Of a stretch of 64,000 bases of DNA, positions 20,832 through 33,709 are shown piece after piece; within the stretch, counting starts at the first letter, position 1, and each line of letters opens with the position of its first letter. This stretch comes from Burkholderiales bacterium (GTDB taxonomy: Bacteria; Pseudomonadota; Gammaproteobacteria; Burkholderiales; Burkholderiaceae_C). The stretch spans positions 496,001-560,000 of the forward strand of contig JACPOK010000014.1 in the NCBI GenBank assembly GCA_016191525.1, in the 5' to 3' direction. The translations under genes were made by a program, and so were the position numbers. The notes beneath the pieces were generated by a model. The model ran no database searches. It was not told where the DNA came from and saw only the letters and a list, made by a program, of their open reading frames with translations.

Positions 20832-21458
20832 ATGACTGAGCCATTGCGAATCGTGGTCGTGGCGCCCGACCTGGTGGTCAGCGATCTCACCGACGACCAT
20901 GCCCTGGAACAGGCCGAGCGTTCCCGCAGCCTGCGCATCGGCCTGCTTGAAAACGGCTTCAACCTCATCGCCAGCCTGCCCGCGGACGTGTTCCTTGCCG
21001 AGCGCATTGCCCAGCTGCAACCCGACCTGATCATCGTGGACGCGGAAAGCGCGGCACGCGACGCGCTGGAGCACGTCGTGATGGCCACCCGCGATGAGCG
21101 GCGGCCCATAGTGATGTTCACCAACGACAACGACACCAGCCACGTGAAGGCGGCGGTGGCAGCGGGCGTGTCGGCCTACATCGTGGCCGGGCTGGCGCCC
21201 GAACGCATCCGCCCCATTCTCGACGTGGCCATGGCGCGGTTCCAGCATGAGGAAGAACTGCGCCGCGAACTTGCCGACGCACGCTCCGAGCTCAGCCAGC
21301 GCAAGGTGATCGACCGCGCCAAGGGGCTTCTGATGCAGCGCCAGGGCCTGAGTGAGCAGCAGGCCTTCGAGAAGCTGCGCAAGGCGGCGATGGACCGGGG
21401 CCTGAAACTCGCCGAAGTGGCGCAGCGCATCCTCGACGCAGCCGACCTGCTGGGCTGA
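20832..21458 (+). CDS. ANTAR-domain response regulator, NasT-like transcription antiterminator
   Basis: A 208-residue receiver plus ANTAR RNA-binding protein. The ANTAR domain (about 148-205) is textbook: RKVIDRAKGLLMQRQGLSEQ, then AFEKLRKAAMDRGLKLAEVA. The receiver has the phospho-acceptor position Asp 70 (LIIVD) but is unusual: about 22 extra residues (13-34) follow the first strand, the N-terminal acidic pair is reduced to APD, and the conserved Lys near 119 is replaced (YIVAGL). In nitrate systems NasT is held by the nitrate sensor NasS; no separate nasS is adjacent. Its likely target is the leader at 21614-21725 just downstream. Confidence 0.9.
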   Translation: MTEPLRIVVVAPDLVVSDLTDDHALEQAERSRSLRIGLLENGFNLIASLPADVFLAERIAQLQPDLIIVDAESAARDALEHVVMATRDERRPIVMFTNDNDTSHVKAAVAAGVSAYIVAGLAPERIRPILDVAMARFQHEEELRRELADARSELSQRKVIDRAKGLLMQRQGLSEQQAFEKLRKAAMDRGLKLAEVAQRILDAADLLG

Positions 21459-21613: not shown

Positions 21614-21679
21614 GTATAAACCAATGACGGTTTGTTGGCCACCCGCTTCAACGGCGAAGTTGTGGTGGCCACACGGACG
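21614..21679 (+). promoter_or_regulatory. ANTAR-type RNA target: two hexaloop hairpins in the nrtA leader
   Basis: Hairpin 1: AAACC (21618-21622), loop AATGAC, GGTTT (21629-21633). Hairpin 2: CTTC (21646-21649), loop AACGGC, GAAG (21656-21659), enclosed by a perfect outer stem TGGCCACC (21636-21643) with GGTGGCCA (21664-21671). Both loops have six bases with A at 1 and G at 4, the published hallmark of RNAs bound by ANTAR proteins. A further pairing, GGTGG (21664-21668) with CCACC (21689-21693), would trap the terminator's 5' arm and competes with the outer stem. Confidence 0.75.
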
Positions 21680-21725
21680 AAGGCGTCCCCACCAACACTC
21701 TGTGTTGCGTGCGGACGCCTTTTTT
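21680..21725 (+). terminator. Intrinsic terminator in the nrtA leader (attenuator)
   Basis: AAGGCGTCC (21680-21688) pairs with GGACGCCTT (21713-21721), and the 3' arm runs into six T residues (21720-21725). It lies 35 bases before the nrtA ATG and downstream of the two ANTAR-type hairpins, so nrtA would be transcribed only when this terminator is overridden. An alternative GGACG/CGTCC hairpin (21675-21679 with 21684-21688) uses the same 5' arm. Confidence 0.85.
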
Positions 21726-21759: not shown

Positions 21760-23004
21760 ATGACCGACCTGCTCAAAACCAAACTTTCCCGCCGCGCGGT
21801 GCTGCAAGCCGCCGCTGTCGGCGCCGTGGGCGTATCGCCCGCGCTGCGCTCAGTGGTGTACGCCCAGGGCTCGGACAAGCCGGAGAAGGAAGAGGTCAAG
21901 ATCGGCTTCATCCCGCTGACGGATTGCGCCAGCGTGGTGATGGCCTCGGTGCTGGGCATCGACAAGAAGTACGGCGTCAAGATCATCCCGACCAAGGAAG
22001 CCTCCTGGGCCGGCGTGCGCGACAAGCTTGTGAACGGCGAACTGGACTTCGCCCACGTGCTGTACGGCCTGGTCTACGGCGTGCACATGGGCACCTCGGG
22101 TCCCAAGAAGGACATGGCCGTCCTGATGACGCTCAACAACAACGGGCAGGCCATCACGCTTTCCAAGAAGCTGGCCGACAAGGGCGCCGTGGACGGCGCC
22201 GGCCTGGCCAAGCTGATGGCGGCTGAAAAGCGCGAATACACCTTCGCCCAGACATTCCCCACCGGCACCCACGCGATGTGGCTTTACTACTGGCTGGCGG
22301 CCAACGGCATCAACCCGATGAAGGACGCCAAGGTCATCACCGTGCCGCCGCCCCAGATGGTGGCCAACATGCGCGTCGGCAACATGGACGGCTTCTGCGT
22401 GGGCGAGCCCTGGGGCCACCGCGCCATCATCGACGGCATCGGCGTCACCGCGGTCACCACGCAGGACATCTGGAAGGACCACCCCGAGAAGGTGCTGGGC
22501 ACCTCGGCCGAATTTGTCAAGAAAAACCCCAACACCGCGCGCGCGGTAACGGCGGCGATCCTGGAGGCGGGCAAGTGGATCGACGCCAGCCTGGGCAACA
22601 AGCAGAAGATGGCTGAAACCATCGCTGACAAGAGCTACGTCAACACCAGCGTGGACGCGATCAACCAGCGCATCCTGGGCCGCTACCAGAACGGCATGGG
22701 CAAGACCTGGGACGACCAGAACTACATGAAGTTCTACAACGACGGCGCCGTCAACTTCCCCTACCTGTCCGACGGCATGTGGTTCATCACCCAGCACAAG
22801 CGCTGGGGGCTGATCAAGGACCACCCCGACTACCTGGCGATCGCAAAGCAGATCAACCACATCGACGTCTACAAGCAGGCCGCCACCGCGACCAAGACGC
22901 CCGTGCCCAAGGAGCCGATGCGCAACTCCAAACTCCTGGACGGCGTCGTCTGGGACGGCAAGGACCCGAAGAAGTATGCCGATTCATTCAAGGTCCACGC
23001 CTGA
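21760..23004 (+). CDS. nrtA: Nitrate ABC transporter substrate-binding protein (CmpA/NrtA family)
   Basis: NrtA (414 residues) binds nitrate (and probably nitrite) in the periplasm. The N-terminus KLSRRAVLQAAAVGAVGVSP is a twin-arginine signal, consistent with export of a folded protein. The mature part starts VKIGFIPLTDCASVVMASVL and contains YTFAQTFPTGTHAMWLYYWL, TVPPPQMVANMRVGNMDGFC and VGEPWGHRAI, hallmarks of the NrtA/CmpA/NasF group. ATG 21760 follows a GGAG site and the leader terminator; the upstream open frame crosses the terminator and is not used. Confidence 0.95.
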   Translation: MTDLLKTKLSRRAVLQAAAVGAVGVSPALRSVVYAQGSDKPEKEEVKIGFIPLTDCASVVMASVLGIDKKYGVKIIPTKEASWAGVRDKLVNGELDFAHVLYGLVYGVHMGTSGPKKDMAVLMTLNNNGQAITLSKKLADKGAVDGAGLAKLMAAEKREYTFAQTFPTGTHAMWLYYWLAANGINPMKDAKVITVPPPQMVANMRVGNMDGFCVGEPWGHRAIIDGIGVTAVTTQDIWKDHPEKVLGTSAEFVKKNPNTARAVTAAILEAGKWIDASLGNKQKMAETIADKSYVNTSVDAINQRILGRYQNGMGKTWDDQNYMKFYNDGAVNFPYLSDGMWFITQHKRWGLIKDHPDYLAIAKQINHIDVYKQAATATKTPVPKEPMRNSKLLDGVVWDGKDPKKYADSFKVHA

Positions 23005-23026
23005 AATCCCCCACCAGGAGAACACC

Positions 23027-23968
23027 ATGGTCAGTGCCGTGTTTCATTCCCCGCTCGACAAGTCCGTCGCCGCGCCCCTGCTGCAGGCCCGCGAGGTACA
23101 GCTGTCGGTGAAGACCGTGGCGGCCAACGCTTCGGTCGCGCCCGCCGCCGTGGCCGAGGCGCCCGCGCCGTTCAAGCCCTCGTTCGACTGGCGGGGCCTG
23201 TGGCTGAAGGTGCTGCCGCCGGTCTTCGGCATGGGCCTGCTGGTCGGCCTGTGGGCGCTGATCTCTCTCAAGAGCACCAGCGGATTTCCCTCGCCGATCG
23301 AGACCTTCAAGCAGGCGATCGAAGTGTTCAGCGACCCCTTCTATTCCAAGGGGCCCAACGACCAGGGCATCGGCTGGAACGTGCTGTCCTCGCTCAAGCG
23401 CGTGGCCATGGGCTTTGGCCTCGCGGCCATCGTCGGCATCCCGGCGGGCTTCCTGATCGGCCGCTTCACCTTCCTGTCGCGGATGTTCAACCCGCTGATC
23501 AGCCTGCTGCGCCCGGTCTCGCCGCTGGCCTGGCTGCCGATCGGGCTGATGGTGTTCAAGGGCGCCAACCCGGCCGCCATCTGGACCATCTTCATCTGCT
23601 CCATCTGGCCCATGATCATCAATACCGCGGTGGGCGTTCAGCGCGTGCCCAGCGACTACATGAACGTGGCGCGCGTGCTCAATCTTTCCGAATGGAAGAT
23701 CGTCACCAAGATCCTGTTCCCCGCCGTGCTGCCCTACATGCTCACCGGCGTGCGCCTGGCCGTGGGCACCGCCTGGCTGGTGATCGTGGCCGCCGAGATG
23801 CTCACCGGCGGCGTCGGCATCGGCTTCTGGGTGTGGGACGAGTGGAACAACCTGAACGTCAAGAACATCATCATCGCCATCTTCATGATCGGCATCGTCG
23901 GGCTCGTCCTCGAGTACGCGTTGATCAAGCTGGCCACCGCATTTACTTTCGAAGAGGTGAAGACATGA
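23027..23968 (+). CDS. nrtB: Nitrate ABC transporter permease
   Basis: NrtB (313 residues) is the membrane permease that pairs with NrtA and the ATPase below. The first 55 residues are a non-membrane Ala/Pro-rich tail, followed by about six helices and the EAA-type loop that contacts the ATPase (YMNVARVLNLSEWKIVTKIL). RPVSPLAWLPIGLMVFKGAN is typical of the nitrate/taurine permease group. ATG 23027 has a CAGGAG site; the ending ATGA overlaps the ATPase start by four bases. Confidence 0.94.
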   Translation: MVSAVFHSPLDKSVAAPLLQAREVQLSVKTVAANASVAPAAVAEAPAPFKPSFDWRGLWLKVLPPVFGMGLLVGLWALISLKSTSGFPSPIETFKQAIEVFSDPFYSKGPNDQGIGWNVLSSLKRVAMGFGLAAIVGIPAGFLIGRFTFLSRMFNPLISLLRPVSPLAWLPIGLMVFKGANPAAIWTIFICSIWPMIINTAVGVQRVPSDYMNVARVLNLSEWKIVTKILFPAVLPYMLTGVRLAVGTAWLVIVAAEMLTGGVGIGFWVWDEWNNLNVKNIIIAIFMIGIVGLVLEYALIKLATAFTFEEVKT

Positions 23969-24801
23969 GCGCCAGTTTCAGCAGCAAGTACATCGAGATC
24001 CAGGGCGTCGAGCAGACCTTCAAGACGGCGAAGGGTCCCTTCGTCGCGCTGAAGGACATCAACCTCACCGTGGCCAAGGGCGAGTTCGTGGCGCTGATCG
24101 GGCACTCGGGCTGCGGCAAGTCCACGCTGCTGAACCTGATCGCCGGCCTCACCACGCCCACGCAGGGCAGCCTGATCTGCGCCAACCGCGAAATCGCCGG
24201 CCCCGGCCCCGACCGCGGCGTGGTGTTCCAGAACCACTCGCTGCTGCCCTGGCTGACCTGCTTCGAGAACGTCTACCTGGCGGTGGAACGCGTGTTCGGC
24301 CAGACCCGCGAAGCCGGCATTCCCGCCGAGACCCGGGCGCAGCTGCGCGAACGCACCGAAGCCGCGCTGGCCATGGTGGGCCTGACGCCCGCCGCGCAGA
24401 AGCGCCCCGGCGAGATATCCGGCGGCATGAAGCAGCGCGTGGGCATCGCCCGCGCCCTGTCGATGGAGCCCAACGTGCTGCTGCTGGACGAGCCGTTCGG
24501 CGCGCTGGATGCGCTGACGCGCGCCAAGCTGCAGGACGAGCTGCTGCAGATCGTGTCCACCACGCACAGCACGGTGGTGATGGTCACCCACGACGTGGAC
24601 GAGGCGGTGCTGCTGTCCGACCGCATCGTGATGATGACCAACGGGCCGGCCGCCACCATTGGCGAGGTGCTGCACGTGGAGCTGGAGCGCCCGCGCAGCC
24701 GGGTGGAACTGGCCGAGGACACGCGCTACCTGCACTACCGCAAGGCCGTGATCGACTTCCTCTACACGCGCCAGTCGCACGTGGAAAAAATGGCCGCGTA
24801 A
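23965..24801 (+). CDS. nrtD: Nitrate ABC transporter ATP-binding protein
   Basis: A 278-residue ABC ATPase of the nitrate/sulfonate/taurine class. Walker A GHSGCGKST, Q-loop QNHSLLPWLT, signature ISGGMKQRVGIARAL, Walker B LLLDEPFGALD and the switch His in THDVDEA are all intact. It is the NrtD type without the extra binding-protein domain of cyanobacterial NrtC. ATG 23965 overlaps the permease stop by four bases; the longer open frame through nrtB is ignored. The kinase gene follows after 49 bases. Confidence 0.94.
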   Translation: MSASFSSKYIEIQGVEQTFKTAKGPFVALKDINLTVAKGEFVALIGHSGCGKSTLLNLIAGLTTPTQGSLICANREIAGPGPDRGVVFQNHSLLPWLTCFENVYLAVERVFGQTREAGIPAETRAQLRERTEAALAMVGLTPAAQKRPGEISGGMKQRVGIARALSMEPNVLLLDEPFGALDALTRAKLQDELLQIVSTTHSTVVMVTHDVDEAVLLSDRIVMMTNGPAATIGEVLHVELERPRSRVELAEDTRYLHYRKAVIDFLYTRQSHVEKMAA

Positions 24802-24850: not shown

Positions 24851-26992
24851 ATGGCCGCCGTATTTCCCCTTGATCCCGGCGCCGGGGGCGCCGCCCCCAG
24901 CCGCTCATCGAAGTCGCGCAGCCGCAAGAAGCGCGGCGGCTTCGCCTTCGGCAAGTACCGCGAGATCATCATCGCGGTGGCCTTCTTCCTGCTGTTCGAC
25001 CTGGGCGTGCTGGTCCTGAACTTCTACACCTCGTTCAAGATCGACCAGGACACGGTGGCCATCAACCTGGCGGGCCGCCAGCGCTACGTGTCGCAGCGCA
25101 TCGCCCGCACCCTGCTGGAAATGGATGCGGCCCGCGCCGCCGGCCAGCCCTTCAAGAAGGAAACCCTGGCCGAGCTGCGCGGCGGCACCAATATCTTCAA
25201 CAACTCGCACCAGGCCTTCCGCGAAGGCGGCACCGTGCCCGGCGGCGACGGCAAGCCGGTGTTCCTGGAAGCCGTGACCACTCCCCGCGGCCGCGAGCTG
25301 GAAGCAGGCGTGGACGCGCTCTGGAAACCCTACTTCGAGAAACTGCAGCCTATCCTCAAGGACGAGAGCTTCACGCCGCAGGACCTGGCCGACGCCCTGG
25401 CCTACAGCCAGGCCAACAACAGCAAGCTGCTGAACACGGCCAACGACTTCGTCACCGAGACGCAGCAGATCGGCGCCTCGCGGGCCGCCACGCTGCGCAT
25501 GGTGCAGACCGGCGGCATCCTGCTGGCGCTGCTGAACTTCGCCTTCATCCTGTTCAAGTTCCTGCGCCGCCTGTCCACCTCCGACGCGGCGATCGAGGCG
25601 GCCACCGAGGAGAACCGCGAAATCCTGGTCAGCGTGCGCGAAGGCCTGTTCCTGCTGACGCCCGAGTTCCAGATCGGCTCGCAGCTGTCCCAGTCGGCCC
25701 ACACCCTGTTCGGGCGCAAGCTGGCGCCGGGCGACGACTTCTTCGACCTGCTCGCGCCGCTGGTTTCCGACAAGGCGCTGACCGACGCGCGCGACTACGT
25801 GCAGCTGCTGTTCGCGCCCCACGTCAAGGAAGCACTGGTGCAGGGCATCAACCCGCTGTCGGAGGTGGAGGTCTCGGTCAAGAACCGGCTGGGCCACGAC
25901 ACGCGCCGCTACCTGTCTTTCCATTTCAACCGGGTGCAGGACGACGGCGCGGTGCGCCACCTGCTGGTGACGGTGCAGGACATCTCCGCGCGCATCGAGC
26001 TGGAGACCAAGCTGCAGGGTGAGCGCCAGCGCTCGCAGAAGGAATTCGCGATGCTGCTCAAGGCGATCGACGCGGACCCGGCCCTGCTGCGCCAGTTCGT
26101 CTCGCGCGCCGAGATGAGCCTGCTGGAAGTCAACGACCTGCTGCGCAGCACCTCCGCCGCGCACGGTGAGGGCGCCATCATCAAGCGGCTGGACGAGGCC
26201 GCGCGCCGCATCCACTCGGTCAAGGGCGACGCCGCGATGCTCGGGCTGGAGACCGTGTCGGGCCAGGCCCACCTTTTCGAGACCGAGCTGCAGCGCATCC
26301 GCCAGTCGGGCGGCGCCAGCGGCGACCTGGGCAACGCGCTGCTGTCGCTGCCGATGCCCCTGGAGGAATTGCTCAACAAGGTGGCCGCGCTCAAGAGCCT
26401 GACGGGCCTGCAGCGGCCGGGCATGGCCGAGTTGAACACGGGGGAGGCCATCAATGAAGCGCTGTCCTCGCTGGCGGGCAAGGTGGCGGCCGACAGCGGC
26501 AAGCGGGTGCGGGTGCTGGTGCGCATGGGCAGCCAGAGCGACCTGGAAGAGGCGCCCGGCCACCTGGTGCGCGAGATCGCCGTGCAGCTGGTGCGCAATG
26601 CTGTGGCGCACGGCGTCGAATCGCCGGCGTCGCGCGCCGCGGCAGGCAAGTCGGAGGAAGGGTTCGTGGAAGTGCAGCTGTTGCGCAGCGAAAGCGAGTG
26701 GACACTGTCGGTGCGCGATGACGGCGCGGGCCTGTCGGCGCCGCGCATCCGCCAGGCGCTGCTGGCGCTGGGGTGGTACAACGGCGCGCAGCTCGACAGC
26801 TTCGACGACCGGCAGATCGTCAGCCACATCTTCAAGCCGGGATTCACCACGGCCGGGACGGCGTCGCAGCATGCGGGCCGCGGCGTGGGCCTGGATGTGG
26901 TGCAGGCCAACGTGCAAAAGCTCGGCGCGCGGATGCTGCTCAGTTCGGCGCCTGGCCAGTTCACTGAATTCAAGGTCCGCTTCGCGGCATGA
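24851..26992 (+). CDS. PilJ-type sensor histidine kinase with HPt and CheA-like ATPase domains
   Basis: A 713-residue membrane sensor. After a basic N-terminus come helix 1 (about 39-60), a periplasmic domain with AINLAGRQRYVSQRIA (70-85), which resembles the P-box of NarX/PilJ-type nitrate sensors, and helix 2 (about 219-238). A PAS-like stretch (about 255-385) precedes an HPt domain with phospho-acceptor His 454 (RIHSVKGDAAML) and a HATPase domain with N583/H587, DDGAGL (623-628) and GRGVGLD (677-683). There is no CheW-like domain, so it is not a standard CheA. It lies in the nitrate operon ahead of cheY- and cheX-like genes, so nitrate or nitrite is the likely ligand. Confidence 0.85.
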   Translation: MAAVFPLDPGAGGAAPSRSSKSRSRKKRGGFAFGKYREIIIAVAFFLLFDLGVLVLNFYTSFKIDQDTVAINLAGRQRYVSQRIARTLLEMDAARAAGQPFKKETLAELRGGTNIFNNSHQAFREGGTVPGGDGKPVFLEAVTTPRGRELEAGVDALWKPYFEKLQPILKDESFTPQDLADALAYSQANNSKLLNTANDFVTETQQIGASRAATLRMVQTGGILLALLNFAFILFKFLRRLSTSDAAIEAATEENREILVSVREGLFLLTPEFQIGSQLSQSAHTLFGRKLAPGDDFFDLLAPLVSDKALTDARDYVQLLFAPHVKEALVQGINPLSEVEVSVKNRLGHDTRRYLSFHFNRVQDDGAVRHLLVTVQDISARIELETKLQGERQRSQKEFAMLLKAIDADPALLRQFVSRAEMSLLEVNDLLRSTSAAHGEGAIIKRLDEAARRIHSVKGDAAMLGLETVSGQAHLFETELQRIRQSGGASGDLGNALLSLPMPLEELLNKVAALKSLTGLQRPGMAELNTGEAINEALSSLAGKVAADSGKRVRVLVRMGSQSDLEEAPGHLVREIAVQLVRNAVAHGVESPASRAAAGKSEEGFVEVQLLRSESEWTLSVRDDGAGLSAPRIRQALLALGWYNGAQLDSFDDRQIVSHIFKPGFTTAGTASQHAGRGVGLDVVQANVQKLGARMLLSSAPGQFTEFKVRFAA

Positions 26993-27007
26993 CCTGAAAG
27001 CAATGCC

Positions 27008-27379
27008 ATGCGCCTCCTGATCGTCGATGACTCCAACATGATCCGCTCCCGGATTTCCCGGGTGGTGCAGAACGGCGGGCTGGCCGGCGTAGCGCTGGTG
27101 GGCCTGGCCCGCAACGGCGCCGAGGCCGTGCGAATCGCGCGCGCCACCCAGCCCGAGGTGGTCACCATGGATCTGACCATGCCCGAGATGGACGGCGTGG
27201 AGTGCATCACGCAGCTGCTGCGCATGTTCCCGAAGATCAACATCCTGGTGGTCAGCGCGCTGTCCGACAAATCCACCGCCATCGCGGCGCTCCGGCAGGG
27301 CGCCCGCGGCTTCGTGGCCAAGCCCTTTTCCGACGACGAACTGAAAATGGCGTTGCTCGACGTCATGGAAGTGAGATAA
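27008..27379 (+). CDS. Single-domain CheY-like response regulator
   Basis: A 123-residue receiver with no output domain. Active-site residues are intact: Asp 7/Asp 8, phospho-acceptor Asp 55 (VTMDLTMPEMDG), Ser 83 (VVSAL) and Lys 105 (AKPF). It starts 15 bases after the kinase stop and ends four bases before the CheX gene, so it is probably the kinase's partner. Without an output domain it must act by protein contact; its target is not evident. Confidence 0.92.
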   Translation: MRLLIVDDSNMIRSRISRVVQNGGLAGVALVGLARNGAEAVRIARATQPEVVTMDLTMPEMDGVECITQLLRMFPKINILVVSALSDKSTAIAALRQGARGFVAKPFSDDELKMALLDVMEVR

Positions 27380-27383
27380 CCCC

Positions 27384-27842
27384 ATGGACTCCCTCCACGA
27401 ATCCGAACTCAAGCTCTTCGTCGACTCGGTGCAGCGCTACTTCCAGGTTGTGACCAAGCAGGAGCCGCAGATCACCTCCGCCTTCCTGGGCACCGGCGAC
27501 ATCGAGGGCTACGACTTCAACGGCATCGTCACCTTCTCGGGCAGCTACAACGGGCACGTGATCGTCTCCATGCCCCAGCAGCTGCTGCGCGAGCTGCTGC
27601 TGCTGCAGCGCGAGACCGACCTGTCGGACGGCAACCTGCTGGACGCGGTGGGCGAGATCGCCAACACGCTGGGCGGCAACGCCCGCAAGACGCTGGGCTC
27701 GCAGCTGCAGATCTCGGTGCCCATGAAGCTGCAGGGCGCCTCGGGCATCAAGGCGCGCGTGCGCAAGCACCCCTACGTCATCACGCTGCGCTGGAACCAC
27801 CAGCCGGCGCTGGTGTGCGTGGACATGGAAAAGCGGCTGTGA
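27384..27842 (+). CDS. CheX-family phosphatase
   Basis: A 152-residue CheX/CheC-type protein. The family catalytic motif ExxN is seen as EIANTLGGNARKTLG (Glu 91, Asn 94), and the N-terminal half has the beta-sheet pattern FNGIVTFSGSYNGHVIVSMP typical of CheX. CheX dephosphorylates CheY~P, so the likely substrate is the CheY immediately upstream. It is the last gene of the first nitrate unit. Confidence 0.88.
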   Translation: MDSLHESELKLFVDSVQRYFQVVTKQEPQITSAFLGTGDIEGYDFNGIVTFSGSYNGHVIVSMPQQLLRELLLLQRETDLSDGNLLDAVGEIANTLGGNARKTLGSQLQISVPMKLQGASGIKARVRKHPYVITLRWNHQPALVCVDMEKRL

Positions 27843-27849
27843 GACATGA

Positions 27850-27866
27850 CGCACCTGATGCGTGCA
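27850..27866 (+). promoter_or_regulatory. NtrC-like site upstream of nirB
   Basis: GCAC (27851-27854), seven bases, GTGC (27862-27865) gives the same GCAC-N7-GTGC core as the site before nrtA. It lies directly after the cheX stop and about 115 bases upstream of the -24 box of the nirB sigma-54 promoter. A weaker half-matching site (GCACCAAATAGGCGT) follows at 27869-27883. Confidence 0.55.
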
Positions 27867-27973
27867 TCGCACCAAATAGGCGTCATGCGTGCCGGTCCCG
27901 GCCGCACGAATACCCACATTGGTGCGAATGCCGCGCCAGGCCCCAACTCCTTTTGGTGCGGCAGCCCCAAAAA

Positions 27974-27990
27974 CTGGCATAGCGCTTGCT
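27974..27990 (+). promoter_or_regulatory. Sigma-54 promoter of the nirB operon
   Basis: CTGGCATAGCGCTTGCT matches YTGGCACGRNNNTTGCW except for TA in place of CG at two less critical positions. The -24 GG is 27976-27977 and the -12 GC is 27988-27989, predicting a start near 28001 and a leader of about 24 bases holding only the CTGGAG ribosome site. Unlike nrtA there is no terminator here. Confidence 0.75.
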
Positions 27991-28004
27991 CAATCGAAGC
28001 AAGC
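27984..28004 (+). repeat. 7-bp inverted repeat across the nirB promoter -12 box and start site
   Basis: GCTTGCT (27984-27990) and AGCAAGC (27998-28004) are perfect inverted copies with a 7-base spacer. The left arm contains the -12 element and the right arm the predicted start. It could be an operator or a 5'-end RNA feature; no protein can be named from sequence. Confidence 0.5.
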
Positions 28005-28024
28005 AGTTTTCCTGGAGCACAAGA

Positions 28025-30460
28025 GTGAAAAAATCGAAGTTGGTGATGGTCGGCAATGGCATGGCGGGAGTGCGGACCATTGAAGAGCTTTTGAAGGTCG
28101 CGCCCGACCTGTACGACATCGCCGTGTTCGGCGGCGAACCCCACCCCAACTACAACCGCATCCTGCTGTCGCCGGTGCTTGCCGGCGAACAGACGCTGGA
28201 CGAGATCGTCCTGAACTCCTGGGACTGGTACAAGGAAAACAACATCCGCCTGCACGCCGGCAAGATGGTGACCGAGGTCGACCGCATCCGCCGCGTGGTG
28301 CGCGCCGCCGACGGCACGGAAGAAGAATACGACCGCCTGCTGATGTGCACCGGCTCCAACCCCTTCATCCTGCCGGTGCCGGGCAAGGATTTGAAGGGCG
28401 TGATCGCCTACCGCGACATCGCCGACACCAACACGATGATCGATGCCGCCGCCAGATACAGGAAGGCGGTCGTCATCGGCGGCGGCCTGCTCGGCCTGGA
28501 GGCGGCCAACGGCCTGATGAAGCGCGGCATGGAAGTCACCGTGGTGCACGTGATGCCCTGGCTGATGGAGCGCCAGCTGGATGACGTGGCGGGCAAGCTG
28601 CTGCAGAAGTCGCTGGAAGAGCGCGGCCTGAAATTCATGATCGGCGCGCAGACGCAGGAACTGATCCCCGACAAGGATGGACGTGTGATGGCCATCAAGT
28701 TCAAGGACGGCACCGAAGTGCCGACCGACCTGGTGGTGATGGCCGTCGGCATCCGCCCCAACACGCAGCTGGCCGAGCAGATGCGGCTGCACGTCAACCG
28801 CGGCATCGTTGTGAACGACACCATGCAGACCGTCACCGACGCGCGCATCTATTCCGTCGGTGAATGCGCGGCGCACCGCGGCATCGCCTATGGCCTGGTG
28901 GCCCCGCTGTTCGAGCAGGCCAAGGTCGCCGCCAACCACCTGGCGCAGTTCGGCATCGGCCGCTACACCGGCTCGCTCACCTCCACCAAGCTGAAAGTCA
29001 CGGGCATCGACCTGTTCTCGGCCGGGGAATTCATGGGCGGCGAAGGCACCGAGGAAATCGTGATGTCCGACCCCTTCGCCGGCGTCTACAAGAAGCTGGT
29101 GATCAAGGACGACAAGCTGGTGGGCGCCTGCCTGTACGGCGACACGGTGGACGGCAGCTGGTACTTCAAGCTGTTGCGCGACGGCCGCAGCGTCAGCGAC
29201 ATCCGCGACAAGCTGATGTTCGGCGAGTCCAGCATCGGCGATGTGGGCCACGAAGGCCACACCAAGGCCGCCTCCATGCCCGACGACGCCGAAGTCTGCG
29301 GCTGCAACGGCGTGAACAAGGGCACCATCTGCAAGGCCATCAAGGAAAAGGGCCTGTTCACGCTGGACGAGGTGCGCAAGCACACCAAGGCCAGCGCCTC
29401 CTGCGGCTCCTGCACCGGACTGGTGGAACAGATCCTCATGTTCACCGCGGGCGGCGACTACTCCTCCGCGCCCAAGAAGAAGGCCATGTGCGGCTGCACC
29501 GACCACAGCCACCAGGAAGCCCGCGACACCATCCGCCAGCTGAAGCTGCTGACGATAGCCGACGTGTACAAGACCATGGAATGGCGCACGCCCAACGGCT
29601 GCGCCTCGTGCCGCCCGGCCATCAACTACTACCTGCTGTCCACCTGGCCCAAGGAAGCCAAGGACGATCCGCAGAGCCGCTACATCAATGAGCGCAGCCA
29701 CGCCAATATCCAGAAAAACGGCACCTACTCGGTGATCCCGCGCATGTGGGGCGGCGAAACCACGGCCGACGAGCTGCGCCGCATCGCCGACGCGGTGGAT
29801 AAATACAAGATTCCCACCGTCAAGGTCACCGGCGGCCAGCGCATCGACCTGCTGGGCGTTAAGAAGGAAGACCTGCAGAACGTCTGGAAGGACATCGGCA
29901 TGCCCTCCGGCCACGCTTATGCCAAGGCGCTGCGCACGGTGAAGACCTGTGTGGGCAGCGAATGGTGCCGCTTCGGCACCCAGGACAGCACGCAGATGGG
30001 CAAGGACCTGGAGCGGGCCCTGTGGCGCATGTACGCGCCGCACAAGGTCAAGCTGGCCGTCTCGGGGTGCCCGCGCAACTGCGCCGAGGCCGGCATCAAG
30101 GACGTCGGCGTGATCGGCGTGGACAGCGGCTGGGAAATCTACGTCGCCGGCAACGGCGGCATCAAGACCGAGGTGGCGCACTTCTTCTGCAAGCTCAAGA
30201 CCGCCGCCGAAGTGCTGGAATACAGCGGCGCCTTCCTGCAGCTGTACCGCGAGGAAGGCTTCTACCTGGAGCGCACGCTGCACTACGTGAACCGCGTGGG
30301 CCTGGACTACGTGAAGAAGAAGATCCTGGAAGACCACGAAGGCCGCAAGGCCCTGTGGGAACGGCTGCAGTTCAGCCTGGACGGCGAGCCCGATCCCTGG
30401 TTCGAGCACAGCAAGGCCTCGGTGGACACGCGCCAGTTCGAAAAGCTCGAAACGGCCTGA
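28025..30460 (+). CDS. nirB: Nitrite reductase [NAD(P)H] large subunit
   Basis: NirB (811 residues) reduces nitrite to ammonium in the cytoplasm with NAD(P)H. Domains in order: FAD-binding (VMVGNGMAGVRTIEELL), NAD-binding (AVVIGGGLLGLEAANGL, near 155), a BFD-like [2Fe-2S] domain (CGCNGVNKGTICKAI to SCGSCTGLV), and the siroheme/[4Fe-4S] reductase domain with TCVGSEWCRFG and SGCPRNCAEAG supplying the four cluster Cys. The GTG at 28025 follows a CTGGAG site at good spacing and starts MKKSKLVMVG, so it is preferred to the ATG 39 bases earlier, which would precede the predicted transcription start. Confidence 0.96.
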   Translation: MKKSKLVMVGNGMAGVRTIEELLKVAPDLYDIAVFGGEPHPNYNRILLSPVLAGEQTLDEIVLNSWDWYKENNIRLHAGKMVTEVDRIRRVVRAADGTEEEYDRLLMCTGSNPFILPVPGKDLKGVIAYRDIADTNTMIDAAARYRKAVVIGGGLLGLEAANGLMKRGMEVTVVHVMPWLMERQLDDVAGKLLQKSLEERGLKFMIGAQTQELIPDKDGRVMAIKFKDGTEVPTDLVVMAVGIRPNTQLAEQMRLHVNRGIVVNDTMQTVTDARIYSVGECAAHRGIAYGLVAPLFEQAKVAANHLAQFGIGRYTGSLTSTKLKVTGIDLFSAGEFMGGEGTEEIVMSDPFAGVYKKLVIKDDKLVGACLYGDTVDGSWYFKLLRDGRSVSDIRDKLMFGESSIGDVGHEGHTKAASMPDDAEVCGCNGVNKGTICKAIKEKGLFTLDEVRKHTKASASCGSCTGLVEQILMFTAGGDYSSAPKKKAMCGCTDHSHQEARDTIRQLKLLTIADVYKTMEWRTPNGCASCRPAINYYLLSTWPKEAKDDPQSRYINERSHANIQKNGTYSVIPRMWGGETTADELRRIADAVDKYKIPTVKVTGGQRIDLLGVKKEDLQNVWKDIGMPSGHAYAKALRTVKTCVGSEWCRFGTQDSTQMGKDLERALWRMYAPHKVKLAVSGCPRNCAEAGIKDVGVIGVDSGWEIYVAGNGGIKTEVAHFFCKLKTAAEVLEYSGAFLQLYREEGFYLERTLHYVNRVGLDYVKKKILEDHEGRKALWERLQFSLDGEPDPWFEHSKASVDTRQFEKLETA

Positions 30461-30480: not shown

Positions 30481-30912
30481 ATGAGCAACATGAGCGAATG
30501 GAAAGTGATCTGCCGCGTCGACGACATCCCGGTGCTGGGCTCGCGCCGCGTGGCGCGCCCCCACGGCATGGACGTGGCCGTGTTCCGCAACGGCGAGGAC
30601 CAGGTCTTCGCGCTGCTGGACCGCTGCCCGCACAAGGGCGGCCCGCTGTCGCAGGGCATCGTCTTCGGCACCCACGTGGCCTGCCCGCTGCACAACTGGT
30701 CCATCAGCCTGGAAGACGGCTGCGCCAGGGCGCCGGACGAAGGCTGCACGCAGAGCTTCGCCTGCAAGGTGGAGGCCGGCCAGGTGCACCTGGACGCGCG
30801 CGAACTCGCCACCCTGGCCATCGACCTGCAGCCCCCGCTGGCCGGCCCGTGCGCCTCCACCGGCGCGGTGGGCGACGCAACCTACGACGTGCAGGCGCCG
30901 CACACAGCGTGA
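30481..30912 (+). CDS. nirD: Nitrite reductase [NAD(P)H] small subunit (Rieske-type)
   Basis: NirD (143 residues) is the small partner of NirB. The fold is Rieske-like, and here both ligand pairs are present: CPHKGG and CPLHNW (Cys-x-His and Cys-x-x-His). As I recall, E. coli NirD lacks these, so this one may bind a [2Fe-2S] cluster. ATG 30481 is the first in-frame start after the nirB stop, with a second Met at codon 4; a long open frame inside nirB is ignored. The C-terminal 40 residues are extra relative to enteric NirD. Confidence 0.93.
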   Translation: MSNMSEWKVICRVDDIPVLGSRRVARPHGMDVAVFRNGEDQVFALLDRCPHKGGPLSQGIVFGTHVACPLHNWSISLEDGCARAPDEGCTQSFACKVEAGQVHLDARELATLAIDLQPPLAGPCASTGAVGDATYDVQAPHTA

Positions 30913-30925
30913 TACCGGCGCCTTC

Positions 30926-33709
30926 ATGACAGAGACTCGTTCGACCTGCCCGTACTGTGGGGTCGGCTGCGGCGTAGTCATCGAGAGCGAAGGCGGCCAG
31001 ATCACCGGCGTGCGCGGTGACCCCGAGCACCCGGCCAACTTCGGCCGCCTTTGCAGCAAGGGCTCCACCCTGCACCTCACGGCCTCGGCGCCGGTGACGC
31101 TCCAGACACGCCTGCTGCACCCCATGCGCCGCGAGCACCGCGGCGAGCGGCCGCTGCGCGTGGGCTGGGACCAGGCGCTGGGCTTCGCCGCCGAAACCTT
31201 CGCGCAGGTGATCCGCAAGCACGGGCCCGATGCGGTGGGCTTCTATATTTCCGGCCAGCTGCTGACCGAGGACTATTACGTCTTCAACAAGCTGGCCAAG
31301 GGCCTGATCGGCACCAACAACGTCGACACCAATTCACGCCTGTGCATGAGCAGCGCCGTGGCGGGCTACAAGATGACGCTGGGCGCGGATGCGCCGCCCA
31401 ACTGCTACGACGACGTGAACCATGCGCAGTGCATCTTCATCGTCGGCAGCAACACGGCCTGGGCCCACCCTGTCCTGTTCCGCCGCATCGAGGACGCGCG
31501 CGCGGCCAACCCGGCGATGAAGATCATCTTCTGCGACCCGCGCCGCACCGACACGGCCGAGATCGCCGACCTGTACCTGCCCATCCAGCCTGGCACCGAC
31601 GTGATGCTGTTCAACGGCATGCTGCACATCATGCTGTGGGAAGGCTGGACCAGCGCCGCCTACATCGCCGCCCACACCACCGGCTTCGATGAGCTCAAGG
31701 CCACGGTGCGCGAATGCACGCCCGATGCGGTGGCCCAGGTCTGCGGCATCAAAAAAGAAGACCTGTTCACCGCGGCGAGGATGTTCGCCACTTCGCAGTC
31801 CACGCTCAGCCTGTACTGCCAGGGCCTGAACCAGTCCACCAGCGGCACCGCCAAGAACGCGGCGCTGATCAACCTGCACCTGGCCACGGGGCAGATCGGC
31901 AAGCCCGGCGCCGGCCCTTTCTCGCTGACCGGCCAGCCCAACGCCATGGGCGGGCGCGAAGTGGGCGGCCTGGCCAACCTGCTCTCGGCGCACCGCGACA
32001 TGGCCAACCCGCAGCACCGCGCCGAAGTGGCCGCGCTGTGGGGCGTGGACAGCGTTCCCGACAAGCCCGGCAAGACCGCGGTGGAAATGTTCCAGGCCGC
32101 GGCCGACGGCGAGATCAAGGCGCTGTGGATAGCCTGCACCAACCCCGCGCAGTCCATGCCCGACCAGGCCACCGTGCGCCGCGCGCTGGAGCGTGCCGAA
32201 TTCGTGGTGGTGCAGGAAGCCTTTTCCACCACCGCCAGCTGCGACTACGCCGACCTGCTGCTGCCCGCCACCACCTGGGGCGAGAAGACCGGCACCGTGA
32301 CCAACAGCGAGCGGCGCATCAGCCGCGTGCGGCCCGCCGTGCCCAAGCCCGCCGGCACCCGGCACGACTGGGCCATCGCGGTGGAATTCGCGCAGCGGCT
32401 GGAGTCGCTGCTGCGGCCCGGCCAGCCCACGCTGTTCCCGTACTCGCTGATCGACGAAGCCGCGGGCGTGGAAACCGTGTGGAACGAGCACCGCGAATCC
32501 ACTCGCGGCCGCGACCTGGACATCACCGGCATGAGCTACGCCATGCTGGAACTGGGCCCTCTGCAGTGGCCCATGACCCCGGGCAAGGCGAACGGCAAGG
32601 AGCGCCTGTATGAAGACGGTGTCTTCCCCACCGCCGACGGCAAAGCCCGCTTCGCCAACACGGTGTACAAGCCGGTCGCCGAGCCGCGCGAATCGCGCTA
32701 CCCCTTCTCGCTGACCACGGGCCGCCTGCGCGACCAGTGGCATGGCATGAGCCGCACCGGCACCGTGGGCCGCCTGTTCGGCCACGTGGCCGAGCCGGTG
32801 GTGCAGATGAACGCGCAGGACATGGAACGGCGCGGCCTGGCCGAAGGCGCGCTGGTGCACGTGACCAGCAAGCGCGGCTCCATCGTCATCCCGGTGCAGG
32901 CCAGCGCCGAGGTCGGGCTGTCGCAGGCCTTCATCGCCATGCATTGGGGCAGCGAATACCTGAGCGGCTGTTCCGCCAGCGGCGAGCCGCTGGCGGGCGT
33001 GAATGCGCTTACCACCTCGGCCTATTGCCCCAGCTCGAAGCAGCCCGAACTCAAGCACGCCGCCGTGAAGATCCTGAAGGCCGAGCTGCCCTGGTCGCTG
33101 CTGGCCGTGGCCTGGCTGCCGCAGGACGAGGCGCTGGCGGTGCAGGAAGAACTGCGCCACCTGATGCGGGCGTTCCCGTTCGCCTCCTGCGTGCCCTTCG
33201 GGCGCGAGCGCAGCGGCGTGCTGTTCCGCGCGGCGGCGCACGAAGCCCCGCCAGACGAGATGCTGCAGCGGCTGGAAGGCTTGCTGGGCGTTGGCGGCGC
33301 CGATGCGCTGCGCTACGCCGACAAGCGCAAGGGCCAGCGCCGCGCCATGCGGCTGGTGCGCGTGGGCGATGCCACCCACCTGGAAGCCTTTGTGCTGGCC
33401 GGCGACACCAGCGCCGAAGCCTGGATCAAGACCCTGCTGCAGGAAGAGCTGCCGGCGCAGGCCTATGGGCGCCTGCTTCTTTCGCCGGGGTCGAGGGCGC
33501 CCGTGGCCGTGCAGTCGCGCGGCAAGCAGGTGTGCACCTGCTTCAACGTGGTGGACAGCCAGATCAGCGGCTTCCTGGCCGGCTGCGAGGGCTTCGAGGA
33601 CGCGCGGCTGGCGGCCCTGCAGGCCGAACTCAAGTGCGGCACCAACTGCGGCTCGTGCATCCCCGAGCTGCGGCGCATGGTCAAGGCCACCGCGCCGCAA
33701 TTCACCTAA
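30926..33709 (+). CDS. nasA: Assimilatory nitrate reductase, catalytic subunit
   Basis: NasA (927 residues) reduces nitrate to nitrite in the cytoplasm with a bis-MGD molybdenum centre. The N-terminus TCPYCGVGCGVVIE, followed by GRLCSKG, binds a [4Fe-4S] cluster; the molybdopterin domain includes GTNNVDTNSRLCMSSAV and GQPNAMGGREVGGLANLL, and a dinucleotide-binding C-terminal domain follows (about 590-710). The last 70 residues are a BFD-like [2Fe-2S] domain (CTCFNV ... CGTNCGSCIPEL). No separate flavin reductase subunit adjoins, so electrons probably come from ferredoxin, flavodoxin or a distant partner. It follows nirD by 13 bases. Confidence 0.96.
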   Translation: MTETRSTCPYCGVGCGVVIESEGGQITGVRGDPEHPANFGRLCSKGSTLHLTASAPVTLQTRLLHPMRREHRGERPLRVGWDQALGFAAETFAQVIRKHGPDAVGFYISGQLLTEDYYVFNKLAKGLIGTNNVDTNSRLCMSSAVAGYKMTLGADAPPNCYDDVNHAQCIFIVGSNTAWAHPVLFRRIEDARAANPAMKIIFCDPRRTDTAEIADLYLPIQPGTDVMLFNGMLHIMLWEGWTSAAYIAAHTTGFDELKATVRECTPDAVAQVCGIKKEDLFTAARMFATSQSTLSLYCQGLNQSTSGTAKNAALINLHLATGQIGKPGAGPFSLTGQPNAMGGREVGGLANLLSAHRDMANPQHRAEVAALWGVDSVPDKPGKTAVEMFQAAADGEIKALWIACTNPAQSMPDQATVRRALERAEFVVVQEAFSTTASCDYADLLLPATTWGEKTGTVTNSERRISRVRPAVPKPAGTRHDWAIAVEFAQRLESLLRPGQPTLFPYSLIDEAAGVETVWNEHRESTRGRDLDITGMSYAMLELGPLQWPMTPGKANGKERLYEDGVFPTADGKARFANTVYKPVAEPRESRYPFSLTTGRLRDQWHGMSRTGTVGRLFGHVAEPVVQMNAQDMERRGLAEGALVHVTSKRGSIVIPVQASAEVGLSQAFIAMHWGSEYLSGCSASGEPLAGVNALTTSAYCPSSKQPELKHAAVKILKAELPWSLLAVAWLPQDEALAVQEELRHLMRAFPFASCVPFGRERSGVLFRAAAHEAPPDEMLQRLEGLLGVGGADALRYADKRKGQRRAMRLVRVGDATHLEAFVLAGDTSAEAWIKTLLQEELPAQAYGRLLLSPGSRAPVAVQSRGKQVCTCFNVVDSQISGFLAGCEGFEDARLAALQAELKCGTNCGSCIPELRRMVKATAPQFT

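Follow-up and report, generated by a model that had tools for sequence, protein, structure and literature searches.

In this work we focused on three genes of a soil bacterium of the order Burkholderiales, which encode a membrane sensor kinase (here called KIN), a CheY and a CheX, and which stand among its nitrate-use genes with nrtABD on the 5' side and nirB on the 3' side. They lie in a stretch of 64,000 nucleotides (positions 496,001 to 560,000 of contig JACPOK010000014.1, assembly GCA_016191525.1), referred to below as the window, the first letter of which is position 1. Judged from its sequence, the triad KIN-CheY-CheX is probably a self-contained phospho-signalling switch that is now part of the nitrate-assimilation locus, responds to nitrate and tunes assimilation. 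Within one clade of relatives it belongs stably to the nitrate locus. An earlier note on this DNA had described the three genes in tight order between the nitrate transporter and nirB; their open reading frames were confirmed there, all on the plus strand, with intergenic gaps of 15 nucleotides between KIN and CheY and of 4 nucleotides between CheY and CheX. The features of the triad are the following.

24851 to 26992, plus strand: KIN, a membrane sensor kinase of 713 amino acids with a PilJ periplasmic domain, a PAS-like stretch, an HPt domain and a CheA-type HATPase (open reading frame and Pfam).
25025 to 25363, plus strand: PilJ periplasmic sensor domain of KIN, residues 59-171 (PF13675, McpN profile match and structure model).
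25061 to 25096, plus strand: N-box/P-box-like motif INLAGRQRYVSQ, KIN residues 71-82, with G75-x-x-R78 (patterns of PMC6381276 and PMC8199190).
26084 to 26305, plus strand: HPt domain of KIN, residues 412-485, with the phospho-accepting His455 within HSVKGD, codon 26213-26215 (Pfam).
26573 to 26983, plus strand: CheA P4-type HATPase of KIN, residues 575-711, with N, G1 and G2 boxes (Pfam).
27008 to 27379, plus strand: CheY-like stand-alone receiver of 123 amino acids, with D7, D8, D55, S83 and K105 (open reading frame and Response_reg).
27384 to 27842, plus strand: CheX phosphatase-like protein of 152 amino acids, with GExxN including E91 and N94 (open reading frame and PF13690).

The three proteins were searched against Pfam at E-values up to 1. 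In KIN, PilJ scored 33.5 bits against a cut-off of 26.6, Hpt 31.2 bits against 24.6 and HATPase_c 50.5 bits, the solved structures closest to the latter being those of CheA, and a PAS_4 stretch (residues 346-381) matched below threshold. The PilJ domain has a hydrophobic helix on either side, one around residues 37-61 and the other around residues 217-241. H455, K458 and G459 are invariant in our alignment A2, the KIN profile also aligns with CheA P1 structures, and the HPt and ATPase motifs are retained in all KIN copies long enough to show them. CheW, H-kinase_dim, HAMP and HisKA gave no match in KIN; in the CheA of the same genome the same library detected both H-kinase_dim (55 bits) and the CheW domain. 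The C-terminus of KIN extends only two residues beyond the ATPase match, with no CheW (P5) domain found there. These results bear out the earlier reading of a membrane kinase with a PilJ/NarX-type periplasmic domain and a CheA-like ATPase devoid of CheW, as well as its HPt domain, the histidine of which had been numbered 454 and is residue 455.

Descriptions of nitrate sensing in bacteria usually centre on NarX/NarQ, NasR and NasS-NasT. KIN resembles the kinases of the NarX-NarL and NarQ-NarP systems by its periplasmic helical sensor, its G-x-x-R, its nature as a membrane kinase and its nitrate gene context, but it shows neither a HAMP nor a HisKA-type domain, its phospho-site is located in an HPt domain, and its partners are a bare CheY and a CheX rather than the DNA-binding NarL. 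With CheA it shares the HPt phospho-domain (HxxKG) and the P4-type ATPase, from which it is set apart by its own membrane sensor and by the missing H-kinase_dim and CheW domains. A survey of CheA architectures counts the dimerization and CheW domains among the core domains of CheA, which has no sensor domain of its own and uses chemoreceptors (PMC10542144). McpN (6GCV) has, like KIN, a PilJ-family periplasmic domain and an N-box-like motif, but it is a chemoreceptor acting via a separate Che pathway, whereas in KIN the kinase belongs to the same protein. Judged by those defining features that were tested at the sequence level, KIN is neither a CheA nor a NarX, and its parts resemble both.

A profile built from 16 KIN N-terminal parts was compared with the PDB. 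Over the periplasmic part it matched one sensor structure, the nitrate-binding domain of McpN (6GCV, E-value 2.2e-4), the remaining matches being coiled-coil proteins (E-values 0.3-0.8). A separate model of KIN residues 36-245 (pLDDT 85, pTM 0.68) yielded 714 structural matches in the PDB, the best 50 of which were examined; the top ten are all NarQ (seven chains) or McpN (three chains), at modest E-values of 1.5e-3 to 1.8e-2, and none of the 714 falls under 0.001. In NarX/NarQ and McpN, nitrate is contacted through a G-x-x-R motif (PMC8199190, PMC6381276). In KIN the core reads G75-R76-Q77-R78, R78 being the nitrate-type arginine, and the window motif agrees at 10 of 12 positions with the published N-box pattern [IVL]-[ND]-x-A-G-x-Q-R-M-L-[ST]-Q (PMC6381276). 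Among the KINs from 33 loci linked to nitrate genes (defined below), 32 could be scored, L020 being broken there. All 32 retain G-x-x-R, and their N-box is exact in 8, with one mismatch in 5, two in 11 and three in 8. G-x-x-R is present in 14 of 19 unlinked KINs and missing from the other 5. Together the motif and the modelled fold make nitrate a likely signal for KIN.

The CheY consists of nothing but a receiver (Response_reg, 89.6 bits), with no output domain in Pfam, and the CheX scores 65.8 bits with PF13690 against a cut-off of 27 and carries E91-x-x-N94. The acid pair, phospho-Asp, Ser and Lys are retained in 48/48 triad CheY sequences and GExxN in 47/47 triad CheX sequences, so that the bare CheY and the CheX with an ExxN phosphatase motif, both named in the earlier note, stand. 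The triad CheX is the sole CheX match in the genome of the window. In the order, CheX was found at E-values of 0.001 or below in 60 of 399 genomes; 21 matches reach at least 56 bits, 12 in triads and 9 elsewhere, and no KIN homologue was detected in the 7-10 kb around each of these nine. The same GExxN CheX family and CheY-like receiver occur in chemotaxis systems such as those of Thermotoga and Borrelia, from which the triad differs by its place outside a chemotaxis operon and by its dedicated sensor kinase. Queries with the CheW, CheR and MCP proteins of the genome found no match in the 64 kb window, in agreement with the earlier statement that none of these is nearby. With the CheA and CheB queries, the only matches are KIN itself, the CheY of the triad and some weak ones near 60.2-60.9 kb.

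The following mechanism would account for these features. Nitrate or a closely related compound, for instance nitrite, would bind at the PilJ dimer interface via G75-x-x-R78, as fold and motif suggest. The signal would cross the membrane and alter the autophosphorylation of His455 by KIN's own ATPase which, to go by the architecture, would involve neither a receptor array nor CheW. The phosphoryl group would then pass from His455 to D55 of the bare CheY, and CheX, given its GExxN, would strip it from phosphorylated CheY (CheY~P), so that the signal would reset fast. The output would be cytoplasmic, CheY~P influencing the uptake or the assimilation of nitrate through contact with another protein.

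The order and common strand of KIN, CheY and CheX are shared by 47 loci, namely the window, 18 of 20 loci of close relatives, 13 of 17 loci of a wider set and 15/15 loci of the family, one of them (L020) being counted with KIN in pieces. With the catalytic residues kept, this upholds the view of a self-contained kinase-CheY-CheX set. A contig edge cuts the triad in L014, L018, L054 and L066; L065 has KIN and CheY without an adjoining CheX, and L068 shows a PilJ match only. Long KIN matches (more than 400 residues in all) were obtained in 16 of 399 genomes of the order, the window's own included, most other matches being CheA-type ATPases, and in 15 of 299 genomes of the family. A phylum-wide draw of 398 genomes gave, at E-values of 1e-30 or below, the own genome and two more, one match being partial. 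These genome counts are lower bounds, as two to four candidates were scored per genome in each search. The triad is infrequent and has up to now been seen mainly in Burkholderiales. In L118 (G726:C4:247000-266999), from a further genome of the class in which no NirB exceeds the family cut-off, two KIN-CheY-CheX triads stand in tandem, one with a second CheX, and in Polaromonas sp. P2-4 (L020:8287-9587) the kinase looks decayed, KIN being fragmented and CheY and CheX whole.

The 20 close relatives (KIN identity 54-79%) were found by peptide patterns taken from the window KIN and are for this reason close relatives only. An nrtD-type gene lies upstream, on the same strand and within about 1.1 kb, in 20/20 of them and in 12 of the 15 family loci. 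The 33 linked loci comprise the window, these 20 and these 12; they come from Ramlibacter, Caenimonas, Polaromonas and others, the 13 linked genomes of the family set spanning 10 genus codes, although L016 and L105, with identical KINs, are probably one organism. NirB exceeds the family cut-off in all 13 linked genomes. The unlinked family loci are L111 (KIN identity 46%), L112 and L113 (about 31%). Around the 17 wider-set loci, tblastn with the window nitrate genes over up to 20 kb, some stretches being short, revealed no nitrate genes, the only matches being ABC-ATPases of 29-33% identity in three loci. The comparison of gene neighbourhoods across Burkholderiales, which the earlier note had called for, therefore ties the triad to nitrate in one clade, and not in relatives at 28-46% KIN identity, including those of other Burkholderiales families, where the triad stands without nitrate neighbours.

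In a tree of 48 KIN rows, made by a quick method, with several long branches and without L014, L018, L020 and L066, a single branch (SH-aLRT 100) gathers the linked rows, which make up 30 of its 31 rows, and the linked label changes 2 times against 14.8 on average in shuffles. The single unlinked row is L111, from a genome without NirB over the cut-off. Within the linked clade the neighbours vary: NrtA is either 77-92% identical to that of the window or a 33-38% version, the antiterminator is NasT or NIT-ANTAR, the triad being present with either, and an MFS transporter, a protein kinase/PP2C fusion and an ANTAR-PilJ protein may be there or not. The triad stays while its neighbours change, which argues against mere hitch-hiking.

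This bears on the view that the triad is a generic PilJ-kinase cassette, which fell once into a nitrate locus and was carried along, with a ligand and an output unrelated to nitrate. Triads of other families do lie near MetG, Kdo hydroxylase, H+-pyrophosphatase, M16 peptidase, photolyase or EAL-GGDEF genes, the five unlinked KINs without G-x-x-R point the same way, and so does the genome with tandem triads and no NirB over the cut-off. We consider this view unlikely in the face of a linkage that persists in 10 genus codes despite changed transporter and antiterminator types, of the G-x-x-R found in every scorable linked copy, and of the only unlinked row of the clade being in a genome that lacks a NirB over the cut-off. 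According to another view, the PilJ domain reads nitrate-loaded NrtA rather than the anion itself and adjusts transport. Genes of the nrtABD type do lie upstream in linked loci, and other receptors are known that sense by way of binding proteins, but G-x-x-R stays constant while NrtA ranges from about 90% to 33-38% identity, and we regard this as very unlikely.

Motility, one of the outputs considered in the earlier note, would make the triad a module for nitrate taxis or surface motility, in which the flagellar motor or type IV pili would be the target of CheY~P. CheY and CheX belong to families of chemotaxis proteins, PilJ domains are found in nitrate chemoreceptors (PMC6381276), and CheW-domain proteins occur in 27 of 30 KIN genomes. 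In the genome of the window the CheW matches are a 2024-amino-acid open reading frame, Chp-like by its size, and a cluster of CheA, CheW, CheR, CheD, CheB and MCP genes. The flagellar part of the proposal does not hold in general, however: FliM is absent from this genome, which is 99.97% complete, and is full-length in 11 of 30 KIN genomes and in 4 of 13 linked ones (a further match, in G523, is a fragment of 38 positions), so the flagellum is not the general output. Three triad genomes (G168, G202 and G130) lack any CheW match, which indicates that the triad needs no array. None of the ten Pfam-named proteins flanking unlinked triads is a motility protein, most flanking open reading frames being unnamed. 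A motility module thus appears quite improbable.

The chemosensory cluster of the window's genome (L120, G000:C8:130000-142999) holds, besides the Pfam-assigned MCP, CheA, CheW, CheR, CheD and CheB, a CheY-like and a Ser/Thr kinase open reading frame recognised by eye, and probably does not serve flagellar motility, the genome having no FliM. A constant neighbour of unlinked triads was also considered as a CheY target and rejected, as no cluster of non-triad open reading frames occurs in more than four of the 17 loci. The widest one, short-chain dehydrogenase-like, is found in L060, L062, L064 and L067, from two genera, and EAL-GGDEF is present in three loci of a single genus.

The surrounding nitrate genes of the window are listed below.

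20832 to 21458, plus strand: NasT-type antiterminator with REC and ANTAR domains, context (open reading frame and Pfam).
21618 to 21725, plus strand: nrtA leader, with an intrinsic terminator at 21682-21725 and, before it, hairpins with A1/G4 hexaloops at 21623-21628 and 21650-21655 (folding).
21760 to 23004, plus strand: nrtA, for the binding protein of a nitrate ABC transporter, which starts with a twin-arginine-type signal (open reading frame and Pfam).
22976 to 23968, open reading frame as listed, plus strand: nrtB, permease (TIGR01183, above cut-off).
23965 to 24801, plus strand: nrtD, ATPase named by position, with ABC_tran (open reading frame and family match).
27986 to 30460, plus strand: nirB, context (TIGR02374, 936 bits).
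30481 to 30912, plus strand: nirD, context, named by position and Rieske-like sequence, with no family search.
30926 to 33709, plus strand: nasA, assimilatory nitrate reductase, context; its best matches are Fdh-alpha/NasA/NasC models, every one under cut-off.

The gap between CheX and nirB (27843-27985) folds more stably than shuffled sequences (z -2.4) and contains a repeated TTGGTGC word on both strands; folding showed no clear terminator in it, and it is possibly a regulatory site of nirB. Near the triad, an ANTAR protein with two PilJ stretches is encoded in L005:11046-12560 and L013:15639-16976, with a weak receiver match in the latter (Pfam, on these two loci only), and similar places exist in L006, L007, L017, L099, L106, L108 and L109. 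From its domains this protein may be another nitrate sensor, fused to an RNA-binding output. A fusion of PP2C phosphatase and protein kinase, divergent to nirB, lies beside the MFS transporter gene in L002:13612-15561, with similar genes in other linked loci.

An A1/G4 hexaloop is the rule for ANTAR targets. In 29 nrtA leaders (L014 and L018 were too short, and L010 and L011 are without nrtA) we found 72 such hairpins against 11.2 expected from dinucleotide shuffles, with at least two in 26 leaders against 1.8 leaders expected. Terminator-like sites occur in 17 of the 29, a count made without shuffle control and including at least one doubtful site, and in the window leader the first strand of the terminator starts directly after the second hairpin. 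The leader at 21618-21725 looks like an attenuator on the plan of an ANTAR (NasR/NasT) target. The operon is thereby similar to NasS-NasT and NasR systems in its nitrate assimilation genes, ANTAR proteins and leader hairpins, but the triad itself has no RNA-binding part.

NasT is freed from NasS upon nitrate or nitrite sensing (PMC3795266). NasS, the cytoplasmic NrtA-like partner of NasT, was not detected at E-values of 1e-20 or below in any of the seven NasT and triad genomes checked, the own genome included. The NrtA-like proteins of these genomes are one twin-arginine-type NrtA each and, in four of them, also a CynA beside a cyanase gene. In the own genome, the only other NrtA relative at this threshold is the binding protein of L121 (G000:C33:150000-163000), where Pfam identifies ABC transporter genes and a cyanase. 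As a detection control, 14 NasT loci were inspected in further genomes of the class. In seven, NasT has an NrtA-like neighbour lacking an evident signal, and all seven neighbours were recovered with the window NrtA at E-values of 2.3e-58 or better. In L176, L177 and L180, NasT lies beside a twin-arginine-type NrtA with no adjacent NasS at the level of the locus, and in four further loci the NrtA-like neighbour is ambiguous or missing.

As the checked NasT genomes of the clade have no detectable NasS, the NasT-controlled attenuator upstream of nrtA is our preferred target of CheY~P, a preference that we hold weakly. In a tentative and more specific form of our reading, a receptor fused to a CheA-like kinase would, with the bare CheY and CheX, read periplasmic nitrate and set assimilation by protein contact, perhaps replacing NasS in the NasT genomes of the clade. 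Taken strictly, the replacement of NasS would mean that NasT is the binding partner of CheY or CheY~P, which would control its antitermination in the nrtA leader according to periplasmic nitrate. The seven genomes without NasS, with a control query that finds NrtA-like neighbours elsewhere, and hairpin numbers far above shuffles are in favour of it. Nevertheless it seems doubtful, because the three control loci above suggest that a NasT without NasS may not need a triad, and because the triad is kept where NIT-ANTAR takes the place of NasT (L003-L008, L019 and L099-L102).

The last point also weighs against our preferred reading of the triad as a nitrate-responsive switch, along with several others. 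NasT could not be the only target of the triad, given the loci with NIT-ANTAR, which is itself expected to sense nitrate. The NasT receiver, read by eye, misses the usual acid pair and Lys, so NasT is unlikely to be phosphorylated. The two mismatches of the window N-box put Y for M and V for L, M62 of McpN being a residue that contacts nitrate (PMC6381276), and the Tyr could shift the ligand. Exact N-boxes are also found in 4 of 19 unlinked KINs, one of them in G516, where no NirB exceeds the cut-off. The full-length KIN model is of low confidence (pTM 0.36), for which reason the claims on the sensor fold rest on the separate periplasmic model. Finally, the linked loci are essentially one clade, the origin of which could be explained by one ancestral insertion, and gene neighbourhood is no proof of common function.

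In the open-access literature searched (titles and abstract starts of the papers listed), we found no description of such a nitrate kinase-CheY-CheX system, and the remark that no described nitrate system is built this way is in line with this. The terms 'CheX' and 'Hpt' are absent from the main text of a survey of nitrate-sensing kinases (PMC8199190). The conserved place of the trio in many relatives hints at a mechanism, so far undescribed, by which nitrate use is adjusted, and it raises the question of what brings the nitrate signal to NasT in genomes without NasS. As a very small system of kinase, receiver and phosphatase, the triad would allow ligand, transfer and decay all to be measured with three proteins. 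If our reading is true, it would add a fast, self-resetting phospho-switch to the nitrate-sensing systems of bacteria, and it would represent a minimal chemotaxis-derived circuit, with neither array, adaptation enzymes nor DNA-binding output, in which the chemistry of chemotaxis serves metabolism without motility.

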